DNA of 24,778 bases from a virus: the IMG/VR virus record IMGVR_UViG_3300017963_000723, positions 1 to 24,778 of that record. One strand, 5' to 3'. Numbering within the stretch: the first letter of the stretch is position 1; every line of letters starts with the position of its first letter. The notes under the pieces were generated by a model. That model was not told the origin of the DNA. It saw nothing but the letters and a program-made list of their open reading frames with translations, and searched no databases. Positions 2,065-15,056 of the stretch are shown here, piece by piece. A program made the translations under genes and the position numbers.

Positions 2065-3756
2065 ATGTCCGATGAAAGTAGAGAAGAATATAAATTAGTC
2101 CAGGCTAAATTAGAGGAGATGAAGCCCCTCTATGACCGCATGGATGAGGACGAGAAGCTATATTTGCTTGACCCTTTCACGATGCGCAAGCTGGATGGTA
2201 GTGGAGATGAGAAAGATGTCGCCAATGTTACGCTGCCAGAGCCATTGGATTACTTAAAAAAGGCCATTGCCATTGTAAGTTCTTACCAGAAGCAGATTAT
2301 TGTCGAAAGTAATGATCTTACTGATAAGGAAACAACCAAAATTGAGTATTTCTCAACAGACTTTCGCAGGGCAGTCAATGAGTGGCTTCCTAGTAGAGAT
2401 ATTCCTAGCCTAGAGGCTTTTGCAAATGAACAGGCCTGCGTTAGGGGTGGTATTCCAGCTAGAGTGTGCATTAGGTTAAATAAAGAAGGGAATATCATCC
2501 CTGATATTGTGCCAGTGGACAGAAGGTGGTTTATCTATAATACAGACGAAGCAGGGATTGCTTGGGCTGCCCCGATTACTAGGCGTTCAAAAGCATCTAT
2601 TGTAAAAGACTATGGTGAAGTAATGGGTCTCAAACCTACTGGGAATGAAGTCATAGACTTCTGGGACAAGGAAAAGGAAGTCGTTTTTGTGGAGAAGAAA
2701 ATAGTCAAAGAACAAGAGAACACATACGGATATGTGCCTTTTGTCCAATCTATTTGTCCGATAGGGTCTCTGCTTTGGACTGATGATGCCTTATCGCATA
2801 AAGGGGAGAGCATTTTCTGGCCAAATCGTGGAATATGGAAAGAGAAAAACGAGATAGCCACGATTGTCAAAACTTTATCCAGAAAGGCATTGAAGGGCGG
2901 GCTGGAGCTCCAACGAAATATAAATAGTACAGATAGGGGGAAAAAGCCAGAGCAATCTCCATATCAAGAGGACGTTGTAATAGAAACGGAGATAGGTGGG
3001 GGATTTAGGCAATTGCCAGTGAGTGATATTAAAAATGCTACAAGGTTATTACTCTCAATAATTCAAGAATCTCAACAGAAGGGAGAGTTAAGTCCATACG
3101 ATTATGGGATGCTTAGGTGGCCGGTTTCAGGTGTCGTACTTATGCAGTTACTGTCTGGCAGAAACGATATTTTAGCACCAATACTCTCTATGATTGCCTC
3201 GTTTGACCAATCCCTCTTAAGAATGGTGATTAACCAGGTTATTCAATTGAATCAAGAGATAAAGGTCGGAAGACTTGGAAATTACTCTACTTATTCTCCA
3301 TCTGATTTTGATGGTGAATACTCAATTGAATATACACTCTCTCTCCTCTCAAAGGAACAAATAGCGGCCGATATGTCATTAGCCAATTCGATGTGGGGGC
3401 GATTACCTGATGATTATATCTTTAGGGAAATCATAAAGGTTCAAAATCCTGATGGGCTGCTGGAACAATTGAGGTCTCAACAAGCTGAGAGGCTGGATGA
3501 TTTAGTATTTTTATATCGGAGAGCACGTGCATTAGTAGATAAGGATAAGCCAACTGAGCCAGACAAAATTGAATCAAAGCTTCTAACCGCCAGAGGGCAA
3601 ACTATCTGGGCGCAGAGACAAACATTGGGAACCTTAAGCCCGATTGAGGGGAAGAAACAACCTAACCCTACACCAACGGAATCATTACCCTTGTTTGCAA
3701 AAGGTGGTGGGCAGGGTAGGCTCCCAGAACAGGAGGCTGAAAGTGAACAAGATTAA
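2065..3756 (+). CDS. Portal protein (probable)
   Basis: A 563-residue soluble protein with a good AGGAG site and the canonical place directly downstream of the large terminase. The first ~60 residues are helical and charged. The middle has a mixed beta core (IIPDIVPVDRRWFIYNTD, VVFVEKKIVKEQENTYGYVP) resembling the clip/stem scaffold of phage portals. Residues about 330-460 form long helices, and the last ~40 residues are proline-, glutamine- and glutamate-rich and probably disordered. The portal is the dodecameric ring at one capsid vertex through which DNA enters and leaves. No short signature is decisive by eye, so the call depends on size, gene order and overall pattern. Its 3' end overlaps the next gene by 14 bases. 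Confidence 0.8.
   Translation: MSDESREEYKLVQAKLEEMKPLYDRMDEDEKLYLLDPFTMRKLDGSGDEKDVANVTLPEPLDYLKKAIAIVSSYQKQIIVESNDLTDKETTKIEYFSTDFRRAVNEWLPSRDIPSLEAFANEQACVRGGIPARVCIRLNKEGNIIPDIVPVDRRWFIYNTDEAGIAWAAPITRRSKASIVKDYGEVMGLKPTGNEVIDFWDKEKEVVFVEKKIVKEQENTYGYVPFVQSICPIGSLLWTDDALSHKGESIFWPNRGIWKEKNEIATIVKTLSRKALKGGLELQRNINSTDRGKKPEQSPYQEDVVIETEIGGGFRQLPVSDIKNATRLLLSIIQESQQKGELSPYDYGMLRWPVSGVVLMQLLSGRNDILAPILSMIASFDQSLLRMVINQVIQLNQEIKVGRLGNYSTYSPSDFDGEYSIEYTLSLLSKEQIAADMSLANSMWGRLPDDYIFREIIKVQNPDGLLEQLRSQQAERLDDLVFLYRRARALVDKDKPTEPDKIESKLLTARGQTIWAQRQTLGTLSPIEGKKQPNPTPTESLPLFAKGGGQGRLPEQEAESEQD
3731..3736 (+). promoter_or_regulatory. Ribosome binding site AGGAGG fixing a GTG start
   Basis: AGGAGG lies six bases before GTG at 3743, inside the last codons of the portal gene. 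The reading frame is open further left with an ATG at 3644, but that start has no comparable site and would read 99 bases within the portal frame. The GTG is therefore preferred. Confidence 0.7.
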
Positions 3757-3898
3757 ATGGACAATAGATGATGTTGACAAGGCATTTACGGAAATGATTG
3801 AAAGCAAACCTGAACAAAAACCAAAAGTAACGCCTAACATTATTCAATTACTAAGGGCAAAGAAGGAACAAGGTAAAACTGAATGGCCATTAACTTAG
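3743..3898 (+). CDS. 51-residue protein between portal and giant gene, unknown function
   Basis: This small gene starts at GTG (AGGAGG six bases upstream), overlaps the portal stop by 14 bases and the next start by 16. The product begins MNKIKWTIDDVDKAFTEMIE, has a proline/lysine linker and ends in a basic helix (NIIQLLRAKKEQGKTEW). It is hydrophilic with no cysteine or membrane segment. The tight double overlap argues for a real, translationally coupled gene. A small adaptor or chaperone for the giant protein or portal would fit, but nothing in the sequence demonstrates this. I do not recognise the family. Confidence 0.65.
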   Translation: MNKIKWTIDDVDKAFTEMIESKPEQKPKVTPNIIQLLRAKKEQGKTEWPLT

Positions 3899-6800
3899 AA
3901 TCTAAAGGTTTACTTCAGAATTATGGGCAGGCTAAGCAACTGGAAATTGAGCGACTGCTGTCTCAGTACGGAACCTCCCTTAAAGAGACGCGAGAAATGT
4001 ATCCTCAATTAACCAGTGCCATTGAGAAAAGAAGGCTGGCATATACCTTGCCCACGCAGGAGTTATTCTTTTCCCCTAGTGAGGCTGCACAGATGGGTTT
4101 GTCGCTTCAGGAAGGCTATATGCTGAAGATGACACCGAAAGTAGACCAGAGTGGATATGACATTAGTTACATTACGCCGTCCAAGTGGGAGATTACAGAG
4201 GACAATTTTTATATCTCGCCATCGGGTGTAAGGTACTCTGAAGCCGATATGCAAGCATGGTTAAGCGAACCGACAGGCGAAGTATTACCAGACTGGATGA
4301 CGTATATCTCTCCTGATTTAACCATTGAGGGATTGACCGAAGAGGGGAAACAAGCATATCAAGAATATCAAGCTACGGGTGGAAAATTGGATGTTGTGGG
4401 GTGGGCTAGATTAAAAGAGCAAGAGAGATTAGAGACGGAAGAGGTATTCGGCGCTGTGTTTCCTGAGCAGGATATTAACGAGGTTATTCAGTATATGCAG
4501 GAGAATCCTGAGGGCTTTCTGGCAGATATACGCGAGATAGGCAGAACTGAGGAGACAGAAGCACTCCTACGTATGCTCATGCCCGAGATAGCCGAAGACG
4601 AAATACAGGAGTTATTCGGTGAGTCTGTGCCAGAGTATACTCAAATGCCTGAATATACTCAAAGACAGTTAATGCCATTCCCACAAACTCCAGTGTGGGC
4701 TACAACAACAACTCCCTTAGATACAGTAGCATTTCCTGGAGCTTATGGGGAATTACCTGCAACGGAAATTGTACCTCTAAAGGATGCTGCATATGTCTTT
4801 GCTGGCAGCATAAAGCTACTCCCATCTCAAATTGCAGCGTCTGTATTACAAGCTATTCAGGGCCATAGTGGAGCGAGTGTGGTGAATCGGGATTGGGCAG
4901 ATGAGAGAATTGCTGAAGCCAATACAGACTTAGATGCCTTTGTTCAGAAAACTATGGCTGAATATCCCTATTCTCAATTCTTAATAGATGTGTCCCAATT
5001 ATCACGGAATTTAGGCTATTCGGTTACTACTATGGGAGCTGGTAATCTAGTTGCCCTACCCTTATGGCTTGTACCTGAACCGACAACCGCAACAAAGATT
5101 GCTGCTGCGGCAACGGCGGGGGCAGTATCGGGATTTGTATCCTTCCGACTAACTACTTACCAAATAACGCAAGAATATCTTGAATTAAAGAATAATGAAA
5201 TGATTGCACAAAGGGGCAGGGAATTAACCTTAGAAGAAGAAAATCAACTCAAGGCTGACTTTCACAGTAGCGCGGTGAAGTATGGGTTATGGGAAGCCGT
5301 TCCAGAAGGTATTAGCAATATGGTCTTCTCTGGTATTTTGGGTGGTTCTTTCAACAGTGCATTAACTAAAATTGTTGGAAGGAAGGTAGCCCAGCAAATA
5401 GCGAGCTCTTTGATTACAAAGTATGGTGCTAAAGCCTTTGGTATTTATGGTGAGGAATTATTAACCGAAACAATAACCCAAAAGGGGCAAGCTGCCATAG
5501 AAATTGAGGCTGGATTGAGAGAGGAAAATATAACTTGGGTAGAAGCCTTCAGGGAAATTGCCCCTCAAACATTTCTCTTGACTACGATAATGGCTGGTGC
5601 TGGACAAATAATAGTAAAAACTGGTGGAGCTATTAGGGGAAGAACTAGCGTTATAAACGTTGACAAAATCATAAATTCCCTTAAAGAGGAAATTGGTGAA
5701 GGGAACCCGTTATATGAGGAAATCAAGCAACATATAGAAGAAGAAATTGGGAAGGGAACAATAACGGAGCAAGATGCTAAGAAGTCCATTGATGCAGGGA
5801 TGTCAGGGCAAATCTTGCAGGACATGAAGGTAGCGGAGGAGATTGCAGTAAAACCTACTGAACCTGCGGTAGAAGTTACTGCAAAAGAACTCTGGCAGAT
5901 GACAAGGCAGGAATACATTAATCAGGCAAAAACCCTAAGTAAGAAAACTGGACTTGGTAAAAACTTAATACCTGAAGGTAAATCCCTCACCGAAGTTTAT
6001 GCAGGAATGGGTCGGTTTCATAAAACTGCTGTTGAATCAGCCTTAGAACAAGGCAAACCCGTTCCCGCCGAAGTCCTGAAGGATTATCCTGACTTGGCAG
6101 GGGGAATTACTGCACCTGTTACCCCTGAAGTTACAGTAGGAAATTGGGTTATCAAGGGTTTTGGGCGTGAAATAACGGCAGGTGAACAATCATTTTATCA
6201 ATCTCTAGCAGAATATACACAAAAGGCAATCCCGGAATTAGGTGGCAAATTCCAAGTGAATATAGCCAAGGTAGGAGCGTTAGGTTCTAAGGGCGTTGTT
6301 AAAGTAACACCATTTACAGAACAACAGGCTAAAAATTATATTGACATAGCTATAGGCATAAATAAAGAGGAACTAAGGCAACTAGCAAATACTTATGGGG
6401 CGAAAAGAGTAGCCGATGTTCAAGAATTTTTCCACGAAATAGGTCATTCATTAGGATTAGACGAAGCGAGGGCAAATAAACTTAGCATAGAACAAACTAG
6501 GAAATACTTAGAAACTACCCCTGAAGTTACTAGTGTCCCACCGACTGAGATTGCCACAGGCAAACCATATACGGCCACTGTTTTTCGAGGGTACAAGCCA
6601 GGGATGCCGCCGACAGATGAAGGGCTATTTGGCAAGGGAACTTACTACACCACAAACCGAGAATACGCCGAAACCTATGACGGCAAAGAGGTTATGCAAG
6701 TTACTCTTAATAATCCTTTTGTTATCAATTCACAAAAGGAAGCCGAAGCCTTCTGGGATGAGCATACCAGACCTGTTAGGGAGAAGGCACTTAACGAAGG

Positions 6801-9800
6801 GAAAACAGTAAAAGAAGCCGACGAACTCGCTGCTCAGGCAGCCAGGCAATGGCTGGAATCACAGGGATATGATGGGCTTGTTGCTAGAAATATCATAGCT
6901 TCAGGTGACGAGATTGTAGTGTTTGAGCGTAAGTCAGTGGGGCCAAAAGTTCCTGTTACCGAAGCTGGTATGCCAGAAGCAGGACTTCAGCCTTCTATGT
7001 TAGAGGAAGTGCCAGCTAAGGAAGTCAGACCAGAAGCAAGAGGGAAGCTTGTGCAGGCTCGCATGGACGATTATCTGAGGCTGAGAGAATACAATGCTAA
7101 GGTTACCGAAGACAGGATCGCTGAAATCAAAAGCCTGTTGGAAAAGAAGGGGCGGCTGCCAAAGGATTTAGGCACAAAAGGCAATCTCCGTCTGGAACTT
7201 GCCAGACTTGAAGCGTTAAGGGAATTAGAGGTTGTTGAGTCTGTTGAGGAGCTTGACCGACTGATAAGACAAGTTGGCGAGGAGCTTGGACTCCGCTCAA
7301 TGCCTTATGCTGGTTATGGTGGTAAGTCACGGATAGACCTCGTTAGGCATGCTGAAAAGCGATTATTTAAGGGTTATACAAGTAAGCAACTTGAGGAGAT
7401 GTTGAGGATATACCAAGAGGCGAGGCAAAGGTTATCGCCTGAGATTCCCGCAACTTCTATTGTCAAGGCTGAGGATATACCAACTGACATACCTGCTTTA
7501 ACAAGTACTCAACTTACATCACAGCAGATAGAGAAAACCATTGACTTATTCAAGGAAGCAGTGGCGTCGCCCAGTGCGGATGCACAGAGAGCAGCGGCCA
7601 TTGAGTTAAGAAAGCACGTCTTTGCTCAAAGAGCGAAATCAGCCAGTGAAAGTGCTCAAGCAATGATAGCCGAAGGCATGAATCCCGAAGAGGCTATCAA
7701 GGCTGCCGAGCAAATGTTCATGTCTGGCAAGCTTCCTGATGTTACCACTGATTACTTCAACGACTTGACCCAGGAAATGCGGAATGTTCTCTTTGGGAAA
7801 GTCTATAACTACTGGAATGGGAAACCGCAAGGGTTTACTGAACTTATATCTACATTCGATGCTCTTACGAACGCTTTAGCTGGAAAGTCAATACCACGAA
7901 AGCCAGGGACGGGAACTAAATATTTTCCTGAAGGTGGGTCGGCATGGGACAGACTAGCTAGGGTATTTATAGGGGACATGGAGCTACTAAATGCCCTTGA
8001 CCAGGGTAAATCGTTACGCACGATAATCGAGGGAGTCTATCTTCAGACTGGCAGAGGGTCAGTTCAATTAGATCAGGGGACAGTTGACTGGCTGAAGGAA
8101 CTGGCAACGATTAGTGAAGAGGATAAATTACTCCTCTCAAAGCCGCTATCTGAACTGACTGAGGCCGATATTAAGCGGATCGCCGAAAGCTGGTTCTGGA
8201 GGAGAAAGGGAGAGCTTGATACACAGCTAAGGGAAGGGGTTATTACAGAACAGGAATATAAGATTGAACTGGCGATGGCTAAGGATAGGGTATTTCCTTA
8301 TAGGCCGATTAGTTCACAGGTTTTGTATCCTGCTGGTTTTGTGCCTGGTCAACCGAGGTTGGGTGAGCAATATATTCCCCCAGCACCGATAGAAGAAACA
8401 AGGACTGAGGCTGAGCTTCGGTTAAGAAAAGAGGCAATGGAGGCCGAGGCCAAGTTAGCCGAGGCCAAGCTCAAAAGAGGCGAATTCCAGCCTGTAGTAA
8501 TTGGCCCAGAACTCAATAGTTTACTTTCAGAACAACTACCTTTACTGACACTTAGAGAAAGGCAGACTATTATTCGCAATCTCAAAAATGCTGGTTTGAC
8601 TGTTATTGACATAGGAAACCTTATAAGGGGTAACAAGGCATCTTTTGACCTTTCCTATTGGAGACAGGCTATGCTGCTAGCCTGTGGGCATCCTGTATTA
8701 TTCTACCGTTCTAATGTCGAGGCGTGGCAAGCAATATGGAGTCAAGAATCTGCTGAGGCTAGTTGGACAAGAATAACAAGGCATCCTTACTACCAGCTTT
8801 ATTTGGATGCAATTGCAAAAGGTGGGACGGATTTCCTTAGACCGCTAACATTACCTAAAGGCACTGAACGATATAAGGGCTTGGAAGAATTTGGTTTCCC
8901 TGGTGGTGAAAGACCTATACCTAAACTCGCTGAAAGAATACCATGGATTAAAATATCTTCCCGAACATTCGTTACTGGTGCCAATTCTATATCATGGGGC
9001 GTTTTCGTTGACAGGATTAACGAATCTAAAAGGTATGGAGAAAAAATAGCATCAGGTGAAATTACACTGCCAGAAGGCGAAGGCTTCAGCTTAATGGATG
9101 ATGTTGTTGCATACACGAAAGAACTAGGAGACTTCGTGCAACGCGCTAGTTTGGGTAAGGCAGCCCCAACGGCACCATATTTGAGTGCTATGTTTTTTGC
9201 CCCAAGGTCAAAGTTAGGGAGGTTGTTAGCTCCAAGGCATTTGCTATCTTCTAATCCTAGAGTTCGCAAAGAGGCTTGGCGAGACTTTATGGGCTTTATT
9301 GGAGTAAATGGCGGTATAGTCATGCTAGGTTATTTTCTTGGGCTTTGGGATGTTGAAAGAGACCCTCGAAATGCTGAGTTTATGAGCATTAGGATCGGAA
9401 ATCTGAGGATAGACCCTTGGACTGGATATAGACAGTTTCTAGTTCTATATACTCGCATTATTACTAAAACAGGCATATCCTCAGTTACAGGTAGGGAGTA
9501 TGAAAGCAACCCCTGGGATGCTCTATGGGGAGAGCGTGGTTTTATCCGCAGTTCCTTATCTCCTCTTGCTAGTATATTAGCTGAATTTGTAACGGGAAAG
9601 AACTTTCTAGGTGAAGAGGTTGATGTTAAGAATCTCAAGCAGTGGATAGACAGGATAGCTCCATTTGCGATACAGGACATATATGAGGCATGGATGGATA
9701 AGTGGCAACATGGCCTGATTGCTATTCTACCGGCTATCTTCGGCGAGGGCGTCCAGACATACACAGGGGATTGGGGGGAGAATTGGGCGAAGATAGGGCT

Positions 9801-11364
9801 TCCCAAGTATCCTGAAAATACCGGATACGGAATCACTGAGCCGATTTATGATTTATCTGACTTCTGGGCTGATACCGCATCACAATTTAAGGGTGTTGAT
9901 CCTGCAACTCTTACAGAATCCAAGGGCTTCCCTGAATATGTGAGGTCAATCGCTCAAGCATTGCAGATTATTGAAACGATAGAATCTCTACCCAATAAGA
10001 AACTCATTTCTCTTAATGCCGATCCAGAAGAAGGCACAACCTTTCAACAATACTACCGGATGTGGCAGGATAGGCAGAAGATTGTCGCTTCTGGCGATGA
10101 AGAGGCGCTGAAAGCCTTCGATGCAGACGAGAGGACAAAGAACGCTTATTATGGCAACATGACTCAGGCTCAGTATGCCCTACTGATGGAGTATCATTCC
10201 CTTCCCGAATCCGAGCAGGCGACTTTTCTCGCAACCCATCCCGAACTTTACACCAACCCTAGAGAAGATTGGCTGGCGAGTCATCCGAAGGAAAATGCAC
10301 TGTTAGCATTGTGGCTTGACCCAGAAACTCATGGCACTGAGGCTGATGTGCATAGTCTTGAAGCACTCGATGAGATTAACCGCCTAGCGAAGTCCCTAGG
10401 TATACCAGACAGTGCAATGTTCGATAGAGAACTTGACGAAATCACAAAGCTAAAACTAAAGAATACTGAATTATTCAATCTATTAGATGCCTACAGCGGA
10501 CTAGATAACGAATTTAAGGGGCCAGACGGACTTACTGCTAGGGGTAGGGCTATACAAAGTTTATACACTGACAATCCCGACTTTAGGGATGATATTAGGA
10601 GAATCGAGGCTCTAGAGGTGGGAACTGAAAAGAATCCCACACCTGAAGACATGGTTGAAGGGTGGGTAGATAGAGGTAAGATAGTTGACGAGTATGGTGC
10701 TTCCTCGGCTGAGGCCAAACTCTGGCTGATTGACAACAAAGAGGCTCACCAGTGGGCTTTGGAGAGCGGTTTACTATCAGACACAGGGGAGGACTGGAAT
10801 GAGCCTATTCTAAGGCTTCAGGTGCAGTATAGAGAGCAATTTGACTTATATGACGCCTACGGTGACAGGATGTCGCTGAACTACATCTCGAATGATACAC
10901 AGAGGGCGGATGCGAGGCGCAATTTATTGTTTGATAATAAAGGGAAGATAACCGAATTTGGAACTGCCTATTACACAAAGAAAGCTCTTGAGGATAAAAT
11001 CCCTGAGAATCTAATCCCTACATATGTTGACTGGTTTGGTATAAGGAAGAAAGAGGGTGTGGATTACTCGGCAGGATGGTATGAGGATGATTGGTATTTG
11101 ATAGAGCATAAAGACTTTTACCAGACCATGTTAAACATGGGCATCTGGACTGAGCAGAGAGATTTTACTAAAGTTCCAACAAAAGAAGTATATAACTTAT
11201 ATAAACAATATCTAGACTTGCCAGCAAAAAGTGATGCTAGAAAACAATTAAGAATCCAATACCCCATATTAGATGCATGGCTTGTTTTTACAAAGGATTA
11301 CGCATACGCCAGCGATGCAGCCAAGTTAATTAAGTTCGAGGAGTTTCTAGCTTATTTACAATGA
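3883..11364 (+). CDS. Giant polyvalent protein with zincin and ADP-ribosyltransferase-like domains
   Basis: A single 2493-residue frame (about 280 kDa). Residues 1-280 are hydrophilic. Residues 380-420, 467-500 and 560-585 hold hydrophobic, glycine/alanine-rich helices. 'VPAEVLKDYPDL' at 727-738 is a motif I associate with phage polyvalent proteins. HEIGH at 851-855 followed by SLGLDE gives a zincin-type HExxHxxGxxE. Residues 895-1020 look ADP-ribosyltransferase-like: FRG with R902, GKGTYYTTNREYAETY from 917, SQGYDGLVARN, and DEIVVFE with E1010/E1015. Coiled coil follows (about 1060-1200). Blocks near 1587-1600, 1755-1860 (with VERDPRNAEF and RIDPWTGYRQ) and 1880-1940 resemble conserved polyvalent-protein regions. 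The last 500 residues are helical with short repeated HP-containing motifs (FLATHPEL, WLASHPKE). Such proteins are thought to be packaged and injected to act on the host. Individual catalytic activity is inferred only. Confidence 0.85.
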   Translation: MAINLESKGLLQNYGQAKQLEIERLLSQYGTSLKETREMYPQLTSAIEKRRLAYTLPTQELFFSPSEAAQMGLSLQEGYMLKMTPKVDQSGYDISYITPSKWEITEDNFYISPSGVRYSEADMQAWLSEPTGEVLPDWMTYISPDLTIEGLTEEGKQAYQEYQATGGKLDVVGWARLKEQERLETEEVFGAVFPEQDINEVIQYMQENPEGFLADIREIGRTEETEALLRMLMPEIAEDEIQELFGESVPEYTQMPEYTQRQLMPFPQTPVWATTTTPLDTVAFPGAYGELPATEIVPLKDAAYVFAGSIKLLPSQIAASVLQAIQGHSGASVVNRDWADERIAEANTDLDAFVQKTMAEYPYSQFLIDVSQLSRNLGYSVTTMGAGNLVALPLWLVPEPTTATKIAAAATAGAVSGFVSFRLTTYQITQEYLELKNNEMIAQRGRELTLEEENQLKADFHSSAVKYGLWEAVPEGISNMVFSGILGGSFNSALTKIVGRKVAQQIASSLITKYGAKAFGIYGEELLTETITQKGQAAIEIEAGLREENITWVEAFREIAPQTFLLTTIMAGAGQIIVKTGGAIRGRTSVINVDKIINSLKEEIGEGNPLYEEIKQHIEEEIGKGTITEQDAKKSIDAGMSGQILQDMKVAEEIAVKPTEPAVEVTAKELWQMTRQEYINQAKTLSKKTGLGKNLIPEGKSLTEVYAGMGRFHKTAVESALEQGKPVPAEVLKDYPDLAGGITAPVTPEVTVGNWVIKGFGREITAGEQSFYQSLAEYTQKAIPELGGKFQVNIAKVGALGSKGVVKVTPFTEQQAKNYIDIAIGINKEELRQLANTYGAKRVADVQEFFHEIGHSLGLDEARANKLSIEQTRKYLETTPEVTSVPPTEIATGKPYTATVFRGYKPGMPPTDEGLFGKGTYYTTNREYAETYDGKEVMQVTLNNPFVINSQKEAEAFWDEHTRPVREKALNEGKTVKEADELAAQAARQWLESQGYDGLVARNIIASGDEIVVFERKSVGPKVPVTEAGMPEAGLQPSMLEEVPAKEVRPEARGKLVQARMDDYLRLREYNAKVTEDRIAEIKSLLEKKGRLPKDLGTKGNLRLELARLEALRELEVVESVEELDRLIRQVGEELGLRSMPYAGYGGKSRIDLVRHAEKRLFKGYTSKQLEEMLRIYQEARQRLSPEIPATSIVKAEDIPTDIPALTSTQLTSQQIEKTIDLFKEAVASPSADAQRAAAIELRKHVFAQRAKSASESAQAMIAEGMNPEEAIKAAEQMFMSGKLPDVTTDYFNDLTQEMRNVLFGKVYNYWNGKPQGFTELISTFDALTNALAGKSIPRKPGTGTKYFPEGGSAWDRLARVFIGDMELLNALDQGKSLRTIIEGVYLQTGRGSVQLDQGTVDWLKELATISEEDKLLLSKPLSELTEADIKRIAESWFWRRKGELDTQLREGVITEQEYKIELAMAKDRVFPYRPISSQVLYPAGFVPGQPRLGEQYIPPAPIEETRTEAELRLRKEAMEAEAKLAEAKLKRGEFQPVVIGPELNSLLSEQLPLLTLRERQTIIRNLKNAGLTVIDIGNLIRGNKASFDLSYWRQAMLLACGHPVLFYRSNVEAWQAIWSQESAEASWTRITRHPYYQLYLDAIAKGGTDFLRPLTLPKGTERYKGLEEFGFPGGERPIPKLAERIPWIKISSRTFVTGANSISWGVFVDRINESKRYGEKIASGEITLPEGEGFSLMDDVVAYTKELGDFVQRASLGKAAPTAPYLSAMFFAPRSKLGRLLAPRHLLSSNPRVRKEAWRDFMGFIGVNGGIVMLGYFLGLWDVERDPRNAEFMSIRIGNLRIDPWTGYRQFLVLYTRIITKTGISSVTGREYESNPWDALWGERGFIRSSLSPLASILAEFVTGKNFLGEEVDVKNLKQWIDRIAPFAIQDIYEAWMDKWQHGLIAILPAIFGEGVQTYTGDWGENWAKIGLPKYPENTGYGITEPIYDLSDFWADTASQFKGVDPATLTESKGFPEYVRSIAQALQIIETIESLPNKKLISLNADPEEGTTFQQYYRMWQDRQKIVASGDEEALKAFDADERTKNAYYGNMTQAQYALLMEYHSLPESEQATFLATHPELYTNPREDWLASHPKENALLALWLDPETHGTEADVHSLEALDEINRLAKSLGIPDSAMFDRELDEITKLKLKNTELFNLLDAYSGLDNEFKGPDGLTARGRAIQSLYTDNPDFRDDIRRIEALEVGTEKNPTPEDMVEGWVDRGKIVDEYGASSAEAKLWLIDNKEAHQWALESGLLSDTGEDWNEPILRLQVQYREQFDLYDAYGDRMSLNYISNDTQRADARRNLLFDNKGKITEFGTAYYTKKALEDKIPENLIPTYVDWFGIRKKEGVDYSAGWYEDDWYLIEHKDFYQTMLNMGIWTEQRDFTKVPTKEVYNLYKQYLDLPAKSDARKQLRIQYPILDAWLVFTKDYAYASDAAKLIKFEEFLAYLQ

Positions 11365-11562: not shown

Positions 11563-12264
11563 ATGAACGAAACCAAAAAGACCAAACAGGACATCTCTCA
11601 GGATGAGACATCTTCTGCTGGCGAAATTGGGATTACTTCAGAACCGAAAGCCAAGACTTACACAGAGTCAGAGATTCAAAAGGCGGTAAGCGATGCTCTT
11701 GCCAAAGCTGGCAGGGATGCCAAATCCCTAGAAGCCAAAGCAGCTCAACTAAAAGCTGACCAGGAAGCTATTGAGGCTCAAAAGTCACAGATAGCGGAAA
11801 TACAGAGGCAGATAGACGAAGCTGAACTAGAGGCAGCGAGAGGCGATCCTGTCAGGCTCAGGGAAATCCAGGCTAAGAAATCCGTCAAGACCCAATTAGC
11901 CGAAATTGAAAAACAAAAAGCTGAGCTTAGAAAGCAACAAGCAGAGATTGACCGCTCAAAGGCTGAGCATGAGTCAGAGGTTCGGGCAGTCAGGGAAACC
12001 AATAAGGAAATTACCATCTGGCAGATTGCTACTGCTAAGGGCGTTGATCCCATGAGGCTAAAAACCCTCAGCGAGAAATTCAATATCGAAGAGAAGGAAA
12101 AGCTGGAGGAATTGGCAGGGGAGATTGCCTCTGGGAAGCCACAGGATGAAAGTCCTAAAAAGAAAATAACTCCTGATTCTCTTGTAACTTCTGGCAATAG
12201 GCAATCTCAGGAAGGGAAAACTGCAAGGCAAATCTATGCAGAAAGCTTCCGAGACAGAAAATAG
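11563..12264 (+). CDS. Coiled-coil scaffold-like capsid assembly protein
   Basis: A 233-residue, highly charged protein with a strong TAGGAGG site. Residues 1-45 are polar, 45-150 form an almost uninterrupted coiled coil (alternating Q/E/K/A with segments such as AEIEKQKAELRKQQAEID), and 155-185 form a smaller helical unit (ATAKGVDPMRLKTLSEKFNI) that looks like the compact motif found near the capsid-binding end of scaffolds. A proline/lysine linker and a basic tail end the chain. The position immediately before the major capsid gene, the composition and the helix content fit a scaffolding protein that shapes the procapsid and leaves before or during packaging. No protease domain is apparent, so it would exit intact or be cut by another enzyme. 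Confidence 0.8.
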   Translation: MNETKKTKQDISQDETSSAGEIGITSEPKAKTYTESEIQKAVSDALAKAGRDAKSLEAKAAQLKADQEAIEAQKSQIAEIQRQIDEAELEAARGDPVRLREIQAKKSVKTQLAEIEKQKAELRKQQAEIDRSKAEHESEVRAVRETNKEITIWQIATAKGVDPMRLKTLSEKFNIEEKEKLEELAGEIASGKPQDESPKKKITPDSLVTSGNRQSQEGKTARQIYAESFRDRK

Positions 12265-12283: not shown

Positions 12284-13276
12284 ATGATTACTGGATATTT
12301 TGCCAGCACCGCCGAAATGGTGAAGCTGACGCAATCCAAGCTGCTACCAGGCATCGTCCAGGAGATATACGAGGTCGGGCAGCTTATTCCCCAACTTCCA
12401 ATTACTACTATTGACTCCTACACCCTGAAGTGGAACAGGGAGGGCGAACTTCCTGTTGTTACTGCAAAGTCGAAGGGTGAGCAGTATGGTTGGAAGGAAG
12501 TAGCAACCTATTCCCAACCTACTTTAGCACTGAAGGAGTATGGCGACCAGTGGGCGTTAGCGAAAGGGGCACAGGAAACCTATAAAGACCCCAACGATTA
12601 CCGGGCAGCCATACAATCCCAAATCATAAAAGGGGCTCTACGAACCATCGAAGACCAGCTTATATATGGCGATGCGACCACGTATCCCAAGCAGTTTGAT
12701 GGTTTGGACAAGCTATGCCCTGCCACTGGCGGGCACACTTTCGCTGCTGGCTATCAGGACTATGACATGGGTGGCGGAACTATCGGCTTATCAATCAAAG
12801 CTCTACTCGGGCTTATTCATGCCTGTAAACCCCGTCCCGACATTCTCTTGATGCCTCAAGAGATAGTTGACCAGTTATTCATTCACGCAATGGGCAAGGC
12901 TGGAGCTATCGTAATGGCTCGTAGTCCCAGCGAGTTTGGAACGATGATTCCAAGCGTCAATGGTGTCCCTATTATCCCTTCCGATTACCTTGCGGATGAG
13001 AATGACAACACTGGTGGCAAGCTGGGCTCTGGGAACCTGGTTAGCATTTACGCTATCAGGAAAGGTTCAGTCGAAGATGGCGGGGTTAGCCTCGCTGTTG
13101 GTGGCTCAACTGGTGGGCAGGACTTCTTCGAGGTTGACTTCTTCGAGAAACTCGAAGGATACAACATGGAAGGGATACGGGCTTACTGCTATGTAGCCCT
13201 GGCAATGGGCAGCCCCAAGTCTGTGGCAAGGGTTCACAGCATCAACAAGACCATAGCCATAGATGCAACCAGCTAA
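12284..13276 (+). CDS. Major capsid protein, HK97-fold type
   Basis: A 330-residue protein preceded by TTAGGAGG. Features usual for HK97-fold shells are present: an N-terminal arm, then IYEVGQLIPQLPITTIDSYTL, a beta-rich E-loop-like region, a long spine helix AIQSQIIKGALRTIEDQLIY ending in 'GDATTYPKQFDGLDKL', the substrate-like 'RPDILLMPQEIVDQLF' P-domain helix, NGVPIIPSDYL, and a beta C-terminus. FDGL after a 'GD' turn recurs in many major capsid proteins. It assembles with the preceding scaffold protein around the portal vertex. No separate maturation protease is seen and the N-terminus lacks an evident delta domain, consistent with the separate scaffold gene. A hairpin follows the stop codon. 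Confidence 0.88.
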   Translation: MITGYFASTAEMVKLTQSKLLPGIVQEIYEVGQLIPQLPITTIDSYTLKWNREGELPVVTAKSKGEQYGWKEVATYSQPTLALKEYGDQWALAKGAQETYKDPNDYRAAIQSQIIKGALRTIEDQLIYGDATTYPKQFDGLDKLCPATGGHTFAAGYQDYDMGGGTIGLSIKALLGLIHACKPRPDILLMPQEIVDQLFIHAMGKAGAIVMARSPSEFGTMIPSVNGVPIIPSDYLADENDNTGGKLGSGNLVSIYAIRKGSVEDGGVSLAVGGSTGGQDFFEVDFFEKLEGYNMEGIRAYCYVALAMGSPKSVARVHSINKTIAIDATS

Positions 13277-13763: not shown

Positions 13764-15056
13764 ATGCTCGATTTCATACTTTATACGTGCTCTTATGGCA
13801 TGGTGACAGACCAGACAGTCATGTCTGTGGAGAAACTACATCACACAGATTACAGGTTTGAGTGGTGGTTCCAGACAGGGGACGCACTTATTAGTCGGAG
13901 TCGTAGCATAGCAGCCTACCAGTTCTTAAAGAAAAACCAGGCGCCTTATCTGATATTCCTTGACGGAGATATTATATTCACCCCACAGGACATTGAGAAG
14001 TTACTAGATGCCCTTAACGAAGGTAAGGATGCAGTAGGCGGTTTATACCCGGTAAGAGGGGGAACTTTCCTGGCACAAAGGGGGTGGAATGGCCAATTCC
14101 ACATCTCAGGGGATTTAGAGGAGGTGCAATTCGTTTCGACTGGCTTTCTAGGCATAAGTCGCAAGATTCTTGAAGCGATTACTAAGGATATGCCACTTTT
14201 GAATAAGGGGAACTGGTCGGAATGTTACCCAGTCTTTGAGGATGGAAGGTTTGAAAACATATTTATCTCGGAGGACTGGGATTTCTGTAACAAGGTAAGG
14301 GAAGCAGGGTCAAAGGTTTACGCCCATACAGGGATTCAGCTAAAACACCTGAAGGAAAGAATATACACGACTCAGGAGGCGATTGAGAGAATGACATGGA
14401 AGCCTGCCAAGAACAATATATTAGAGGACTTAGCCACATATCTCAGTAAACCTGTCGCTGACTTTATTCCTCAAGCTAAGGCTACCGAGCAATTAGGCGA
14501 AAGGTGGAAGGCTTGGAAGGGAACAACCGAAGAGTTCTATCAAGACCCCGAGAATGGACTGCTTTATCTCTATGACCTAGCTTGGTTCAATTCGGCTGAG
14601 TTCTACAAGGAGCAGAGGATGGCTGGCATTAAGAACGCCGAACATCTGCATATTCTTGATGTTGGATGTGGCATAGGGACCGCGCTGCTTGAACTGTGCT
14701 GGAGGAATAAGAACCTGGTCGGCTATGACCTGAGCGAGACAATATTAGACTTCGCAAGGTTCAGAGCTAATAAGCTGGGAGCAAATAATGTCAAGTTCAC
14801 CAGCGAATTTCCCAACTTAGAGAAGTTCGACCTCATTATCGCCATAGATACCTTAGAGCATATCGAGGACTTGAGGCTCTTTCTTCTAAAGCTAGGACAG
14901 GGCATGAAGGAGGGTGCGAGGTTCTATCATTTTGACTGTTTTTGGGAACATGACATCAGCCCGATGCACTTCGACCACAGTGAACATATCAATGAGTGGT
15001 TGAAAGAGGCGGGACTGGTGATATTCGACAAACGATGGTGCATTAAAGGAGGTTAA
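13764..15056 (+). CDS. Glycosyltransferase-methyltransferase fusion
   Basis: A 430-residue protein with AGGAGG. Residues 1-220 look like a GT-A glycosyltransferase: a Rossmann-like start, 'RSRSIAAYQFL', the metal-binding DxD at D67-G-D69 within LIFLDGDIIF, acceptor/nucleotide loop GGLYPVRGG, acidic SEDWDF at 169-174 and a late histidine H188 (AHTGIQLKHL). Residues 230-430 are a class I SAM methyltransferase with motif I LDVGCGIGT (D299 onward), acidic post-I 'VGYDLS' and IIAIDTLEHIED as motif IV. It contains no transmembrane segment. A plausible role is adding and methylating a sugar on a virion protein or host glycan. The gene sits between capsid and adaptor genes, so it would be expressed late with the structural proteins. 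Substrates are unknown. Confidence 0.85.
   Translation: MLDFILYTCSYGMVTDQTVMSVEKLHHTDYRFEWWFQTGDALISRSRSIAAYQFLKKNQAPYLIFLDGDIIFTPQDIEKLLDALNEGKDAVGGLYPVRGGTFLAQRGWNGQFHISGDLEEVQFVSTGFLGISRKILEAITKDMPLLNKGNWSECYPVFEDGRFENIFISEDWDFCNKVREAGSKVYAHTGIQLKHLKERIYTTQEAIERMTWKPAKNNILEDLATYLSKPVADFIPQAKATEQLGERWKAWKGTTEEFYQDPENGLLYLYDLAWFNSAEFYKEQRMAGIKNAEHLHILDVGCGIGTALLELCWRNKNLVGYDLSETILDFARFRANKLGANNVKFTSEFPNLEKFDLIIAIDTLEHIEDLRLFLLKLGQGMKEGARFYHFDCFWEHDISPMHFDHSEHINEWLKEAGLVIFDKRWCIKGG

Follow-up and report, generated by a model that had tools for sequence, protein, structure and literature searches.

A giant polyvalent-type phage protein encoded between portal and scaffold genes, with varying enzyme-like cassettes and joints conserved at the DNA level

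Introduction

In a virus of the IMG/VR collection (record IMGVR_UViG_3300017963_000723), the portal and scaffold genes are separated by one very long gene, whose product we call the giant. This raises the question of what so large a protein does among head genes and how its segments came to share a single frame. The window analysed here is the whole stretch of 24,778 nucleotides, positions 1 to 24,778 of that record, in which an earlier reading of the DNA (the original prediction) had proposed a multi-domain polyvalent effector.

Polyvalent proteins are described as large phage proteins that are encoded near virion genes and unite two or more domains differing in activity (PMC5512222). The part of the Iyer et al. 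2017 account considered here describes the accretion of domains, and not DNA-level joints that exchange cassettes inside one orthologous gene (PMC5512222). These proteins are known to be modular, and how their domains are exchanged is not settled in the literature considered here.

Results and discussion

The giant gene and its neighbours

The giant gene (3883..11364, plus strand) starts with ATG and codes for 2493 amino acids in a single frame that is open throughout, as originally predicted. It has about two dozen distinct relatives, so a chance frame is impossible. Genes for TerS (84-722) and TerL (646-1818) lie upstream, followed by the portal gene (2065..3756, plus strand), which was assigned from its location, helped by a PHROG match that is very weak, and always directly precedes the giant. 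A coiled-coil scaffold-like gene (11563..12264, plus strand) comes directly downstream, and then the gene of a major capsid protein of the epsilon15 gp7 type (12284..13276, plus strand; NF045672, 1e-23). The order portal-giant-scaffold, usually continued by the capsid gene, is found in all IMG/VR relatives with enough context, which agrees with the predicted location between portal and scaffold. The giant thus adjoins virion genes of a portal-terminase phage, as is typical of polyvalent proteins, and its conserved slot fits a virion protein. We conclude that it is a polyvalent-type protein of podovirus-like phages.

A fused glycosyltransferase-methyltransferase gene (13764-15056) also lies amid the structural genes; several relatives have it at about 80% identity, and it is better conserved than the portal gene.

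An ADP-ribosyltransferase fold of a divergent type

The first enzyme-like region is an ADP-ribosyltransferase (ART) cassette at residues 889-1018 (6547..6936, plus strand), with R902, Y921/Y922, and D1009-E1010 as its characteristic residues. An AlphaFold model of residues 741-1036, built from 13 rows, reaches a pLDDT of 93 within the ART. Compared with the PDB by Foldseek, the modelled ART retrieved tankyrases, the anti-CRISPR protein AcrIF11 (6kyf), ParT, MbcT, NatT, and diphtheria-type toxins, with probabilities up to 0.99, and compared with BFVD it retrieved viral polyvalent proteins, several of them named ART-PolyVal, with E-values down to 3.8e-6. The Pfam ART-PolyVal profile (PF18760) covers positions 29-127 of its 140 on the window protein with a score of 24.3, below the gathering score of 31.2; the homologous cassette of one relative, L021, clears that threshold at 32.7. 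Profile and fold together bear out the predicted ART-like domain, and the ART fold is well supported by these model-based comparisons. A tblastn search for the ART cassette in named phages returned no match.

Across the relatives, R902, a G-K-G-T-Y-Y stretch around 917-922, and D1009-E1010 are kept, R902 being replaced by Lys in two of them (L035 and L050). R902, YYTT at 921-924, and E1010 therefore stand where they had been predicted and E1010 is conserved, whereas E1015, also named as a candidate, is not. Polyvalent ARTs have been described with an H-Y-D active-site configuration; the window cassette shows R/K-Y-(D)E instead, which makes it a divergent ART variant. It resembles AcrIF11 in its fold and in the D-E pair of the catalytic loop, to be compared with D1009-E1010. 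AcrIF11 is nevertheless free-standing and shares only about 17% identity with the window ART. Another phage ART, Alt of T4, acts on the host polymerase. By analogy, the window cassette could act on the host polymerase like Alt or on a defence complex like AcrIF11, and it would modify a host or defence protein in the infected cell.

A probable zincin metallopeptidase

Directly ahead of the ART, residues 752-877 (6136..6513, plus strand) probably form a zincin metallopeptidase, as judged from its motif, its helix layout, and its conservation in a relative. The predicted HEIGH motif is present at residues 851-855 (6433-6447), and an HExxH motif is expected only 0.016 times in a protein of the composition of the giant. 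When the isolated slice was compared with Pfam, all four weak matches were zincins. The AlphaFold model places HEIGH inside a predicted helix (840-856) and E861 at the start of the next one (861-878), the three-stranded sheet region being modelled at low confidence; Foldseek on the model of 741-1036 retrieved no zincin.

Protein searches in IMG/VR, phages, and plasmids found no relative of this cassette. The only known one, which surfaced solely through the joint search described below, is a 46%-identical segment in L078 that has HEIAH and keeps the following Glu and an AN pair. Since E861 is kept in L078 and D860 is not, E861 is the likely third ligand. For the same reason, we lowered a metzincin reading of the segment (HExxHxxGxxD, with D860 as third ligand). 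The processing of a polyvalent protein after its delivery by a zincin has been proposed earlier; here, the zincin could likewise cut the giant itself after delivery, releasing its parts, or else cleave a host protein.

Chassis and non-enzymatic segments

The N-terminal chassis, residues 1-255 (3883..4647, plus strand), is shared at 54-65% by most relatives of the family and is predicted to be folded, with pLDDT values mostly between 65 and 91. A fold search with the N-terminal 660 residues, whose model is poor past residue 250, gave one modest match (E 5e-3), a viral protein whose name refers to a large polyvalent-protein domain. Next comes a helical, mildly hydrophobic segment at residues 260-640 (4660..5802, plus strand), found in this version only in some relatives. 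Hydrophobic helical segments had been predicted, and residues 260-660 are indeed helical and mildly hydrophobic. Their hydrophobicity is nevertheless weak in the window giant, where the best Kyte-Doolittle 19-mers score 1.31 (406-424) and 1.63 (1803-1821), and stronger in relatives. Residues 296-575 match the DarB-like giant of Klebsiella phage LASTA (26.6%, E 2e-10), which is also encoded next to virion structural genes but is about 4,433 amino acids long and has only this helical segment in common with the window giant.

The sequence ILQDMKVAEE, residues 644-653 (5812..5841, plus strand), marks the left border of the region in which the cassettes vary. It is followed by a mini-module, WQMT...GKPVPAEVLKDYPDL, at residues 668-738 (5884..6096, plus strand), also present in L008, L010, and L026, which has 98% nucleotide identity to L010 across 43 nucleotides and weak matches to DarB-like proteins of phage-plasmids. 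The motif VPAEVLKDYPDL, singled out in the original prediction, was found and ends at residue 738. Beyond the enzyme-like cassettes, module M1 at residues 1046-1190 (7018..7452, plus strand) is common to about half of the relatives.

The C-terminal chassis, residues 1576-2475 (8608..11307, plus strand), exists in at least three versions among the relatives. The polyvalent-type blocks expected around residues 1587-1940 could not be substantiated: they have no counterpart among Pfam, PHROG, or LPD families, and a Pfam scan of 13 relatives gave nothing. LPD38 (PF18857) at 1576-1936 was ruled out by an hhalign probability of 0.1 against L026, the only giant in which LPD38 is recognised, and by the lack of a Pfam hit. 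A sequence search against the PDB gave no matches.

The window giant is thus comparable to phage polyvalent proteins in being large, in lying amid virion genes, and in combining domains of disparate activity within its 2493 residues (the ART fold and the probable zincin), and one of its relatives carries LPD38. It differs from them in that no LPD domain of Pfam exceeds the threshold in it. The chassis, that is the N-terminal 255 residues together with the C-terminal region, may have its role in assembly, either in the head or at the portal vertex, and would deliver the giant together with the DNA.

Cassettes vary on a conserved chassis

Comparison of the relatives, referred to by their L numbers, shows that residues 655-1021 are a hotspot that holds several ART types, zincin types, and other segments while the chassis is kept. 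Region by region, the N-terminal domain, the helical segment, the cassettes, and three C-terminal versions assort independently. L001, L010, L011, L014, and L023 have most of the C-terminal half of the window giant without its ART or zincin, and relatives that share much of this half (C1 region 69-75% identical) carry different cassettes. Conversely, the ART of the window giant recurs at 76-81% identity in L004, L008, L013, and L030, whose C-terminal version is a different one (C1 region 44-45%). A common helical spacer in L014 and L004 is followed by a HEALH cassette in the former and the ART in the latter. A second insertion site occurs directly after module M1 in L003 and L012, which have different ART-like or HEIGH segments there. 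On the portal tree (22 rows), ART presence requires 6 changes, versus 6.8 with shuffled labels, and about a third of the shuffles are as low. Cassettes are gained and lost without regard to the portal tree.

The combination of domains to which the original prediction drew attention is present as an ART with a probable zincin. It is however not a fixed feature of these proteins, only one sample of a shuffled set, and we consider the shuffling, an organisation which that prediction had missed, more interesting than the particular combination.

These comparisons also bear on whether the giant is simply a structural protein of a common kind, such as an ejection or tape-measure-like protein, whose ART- and zincin-like segments, as passengers or in a decayed state, have no effector role. 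Such a protein would agree with the chassis being the most widely shared part, with the helical nature of much of the giant, and with L011, L023, and L026, which have neither an ART nor an HExxH motif at the hotspot. The ART residues are, however, strongly kept across relatives and on unrelated chassis even though synonymous sites have largely diverged, and the same sites repeatedly hold ART-like and HExxH cassettes that are unrelated to one another, which neutral passengers leave unexplained. We therefore regard a purely structural role as quite unlikely. As part of an effector, the mid-protein hotspot would hold at least one enzyme cassette whose activity is exerted in the infected cell.

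Joints conserved at the DNA level

The edges of the cassettes are marked by short joints. In the window, a 15-nucleotide in-frame direct repeat, TACCCCTGAAGTTAC (VTPEVT), coincides precisely with the two edges of the zincin cassette, at 6120..6134 on the left and at 6516..6530 on the right (both plus strand). A different joint, GMPEAGLQPSML (6967..7002, plus strand), lies on the right, behind the ART, and shows DNA-level conservation across 12 relatives. Its synonymous comparisons are identical in 77 of 105 cases (0.73), where the same residues elsewhere in the gene lead one to expect 0.38; this synonymous-codon identity was not reached in any of 20,000 resamplings. The left-type joint, PVTPEVT, is most commonly spelled GTTACCCCAGAGGTTAC. 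The pair PE is spelled CCAGAG in 22 of 34 joints, compared with 63 of its 562 occurrences elsewhere in these genes (Fisher 2.7e-12); homologous positions are among those counted, so the counts are not fully independent. Both types of joint are kept alike at the DNA level.

Several relatives connect the joints with rearranged cassettes. The ART of L013, L021, and L035 stands directly behind a PVTPEVT-type joint with no zincin in between, two copies of the right joint flank a short cassette in L041, and two GMPE-type joints are found in L003. Hybrids of both joint types (EAGMPEVT) occur in L012, L035, and L050. Exact repeats of at least 14 nucleotides across the giants number 24, versus 4.9 in codon-shuffled controls; most of these lie elsewhere in conserved motifs, and they were counted as evidence solely where they fall exactly on cassette edges.

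Joint conservation could also stem from a function of the DNA or RNA: translation might start internally at the Met of GMPEAGLQPSML, for example, or the joint might be a regulatory element or a site where codons cause a pause between domains. The excess of synonymous conservation is sharp and local, in genes whose synonymous sites have otherwise largely diverged, and AGGA precedes the ATG within the right joint, both as such a function would have it. The Met is nevertheless missing from the right joints of L003 and L004, the PVTPEVT joint contains no start codon and occurs at many positions, up to four per gene, and the hybrid joints point to exchange. This explanation is in our opinion unlikely, and we infer that recombination has kept the joints alike, the phages trading cassettes in frame at PVTPEVT and GMPEAGLQPSML.

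An exact 17-nucleotide joint string was then used as the sole query in IMG/VR. It retrieved 33 stretches, some of them near-copies so that the count is not fully independent, and in 27 of the 33 it lies in frame within giant-related ORFs, at positions from about 257 to 1246. A synonymous control string retrieved 18 stretches, 2 of which are in related ORFs (Fisher 1.1e-6 versus the joint). L078 has four joints in one gene, with a module spacing of 133-161 residues; its giant has a different chassis, and its first inter-joint cassette, exactly between two joints, is the relative of the window zincin. L086 has two joints with an ART-like cassette between them (YYHGART...YDG), judged by eye. The other inter-joint cassettes, also judged by eye, are unknown modules. 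Pfam gave no usable name for any of them or for the ART-like one. The search thus turned out as the idea of joints predicts and recovered a zincin relative that had otherwise escaped detection. The joint can serve as a probe, since searches of viral collections with it pull out new candidate effector cassettes whatever their sequence.

The same 17-nucleotide string occurs in frame (SYVTPEVT) in a 420-amino-acid protein family of other viruses (L082, L091, L099), which is probably unrelated to the giants.

Taken with the conserved slot, these results lead us to propose, at a probability of roughly 0.7, that the giant is a virion-carried polyvalent effector with a fixed chassis, in whose hotspot enzyme cassettes are exchanged in frame by recombination at the joints; it would be packaged and injected, and may counter host defences. 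The named joints, the direct repeats at cassette edges, and the hybrid joints offer a testable mechanism of exchange. Polymorphic toxins and modular tail-fibre genes likewise combine a conserved carrier with modules that are exchangeable at a short conserved boundary. In the giants, unlike in those systems, the carrier is a head-region protein, the cassettes are internal and stackable, and the boundary recurs inside a single gene.

Relatives and hosts

Relatives were collected by protein scans of IMG/VR and by one scan of 84,980 prokaryote genomes, which gave a single relative, in a Dehalococcoidia MAG. A drawn set of 294 Dehalococcoidia genomes contains three giant carriers, this MAG included; one of the three has a portal gene directly upstream and one has scaffold- and capsid-like genes alongside. 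The analysis in this way ties a poorly known phage family to Dehalococcoidia. We lean, more tentatively than for the effector itself, towards the view that environmental phages, probably infecting Dehalococcoidia and their kin, keep an effector-exchange platform inside one head-region gene, in which the joints are recombination sites where ART, protease, and other cassettes can enter, stack up, drop out, or be traded between phages, the delivery chassis remaining the same.

In the MAG found by the scan, the relative of the giant (L041; DUEE01000026.1, 2998-18792) has a chromosomal ribF-like gene on one side and, on the other, a tyrosine integrase gene that overlaps tRNA-Thr. The region has a primase/helicase-like gene and no portal or capsid gene near the relative, and the protein encoded ahead of the integrase has a 53-residue stretch in common with the scaffold-like protein of the window. 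We read this element as a decayed prophage or a satellite.

A relative without adjoining portal and capsid genes is what might be seen if the giant were expressed late and, without being injected, served in the producing cell to exclude superinfection or to control the host, and the giant gene does belong to a late operon. We find this quite improbable, the least probable of the alternatives weighed here, in view of the strict slot between portal and scaffold and of the polyvalent precedents, which are described as packaged. A virion-carried effector remains our preferred reading.

The same MAG has a further prophage-like region (L061, 13432-14298, on contig 3 of G001), with a capsid protein 28-32% identical and no giant found beside the capsid gene. 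The giant of L027 (5727-12215) is in two frames of 1417 and 431 amino acids, for which a natural split or an assembly error is possible. Finally, the 3318-amino-acid giant of another phage (L056, 2511-12464) carries two ART copies of the same kind.
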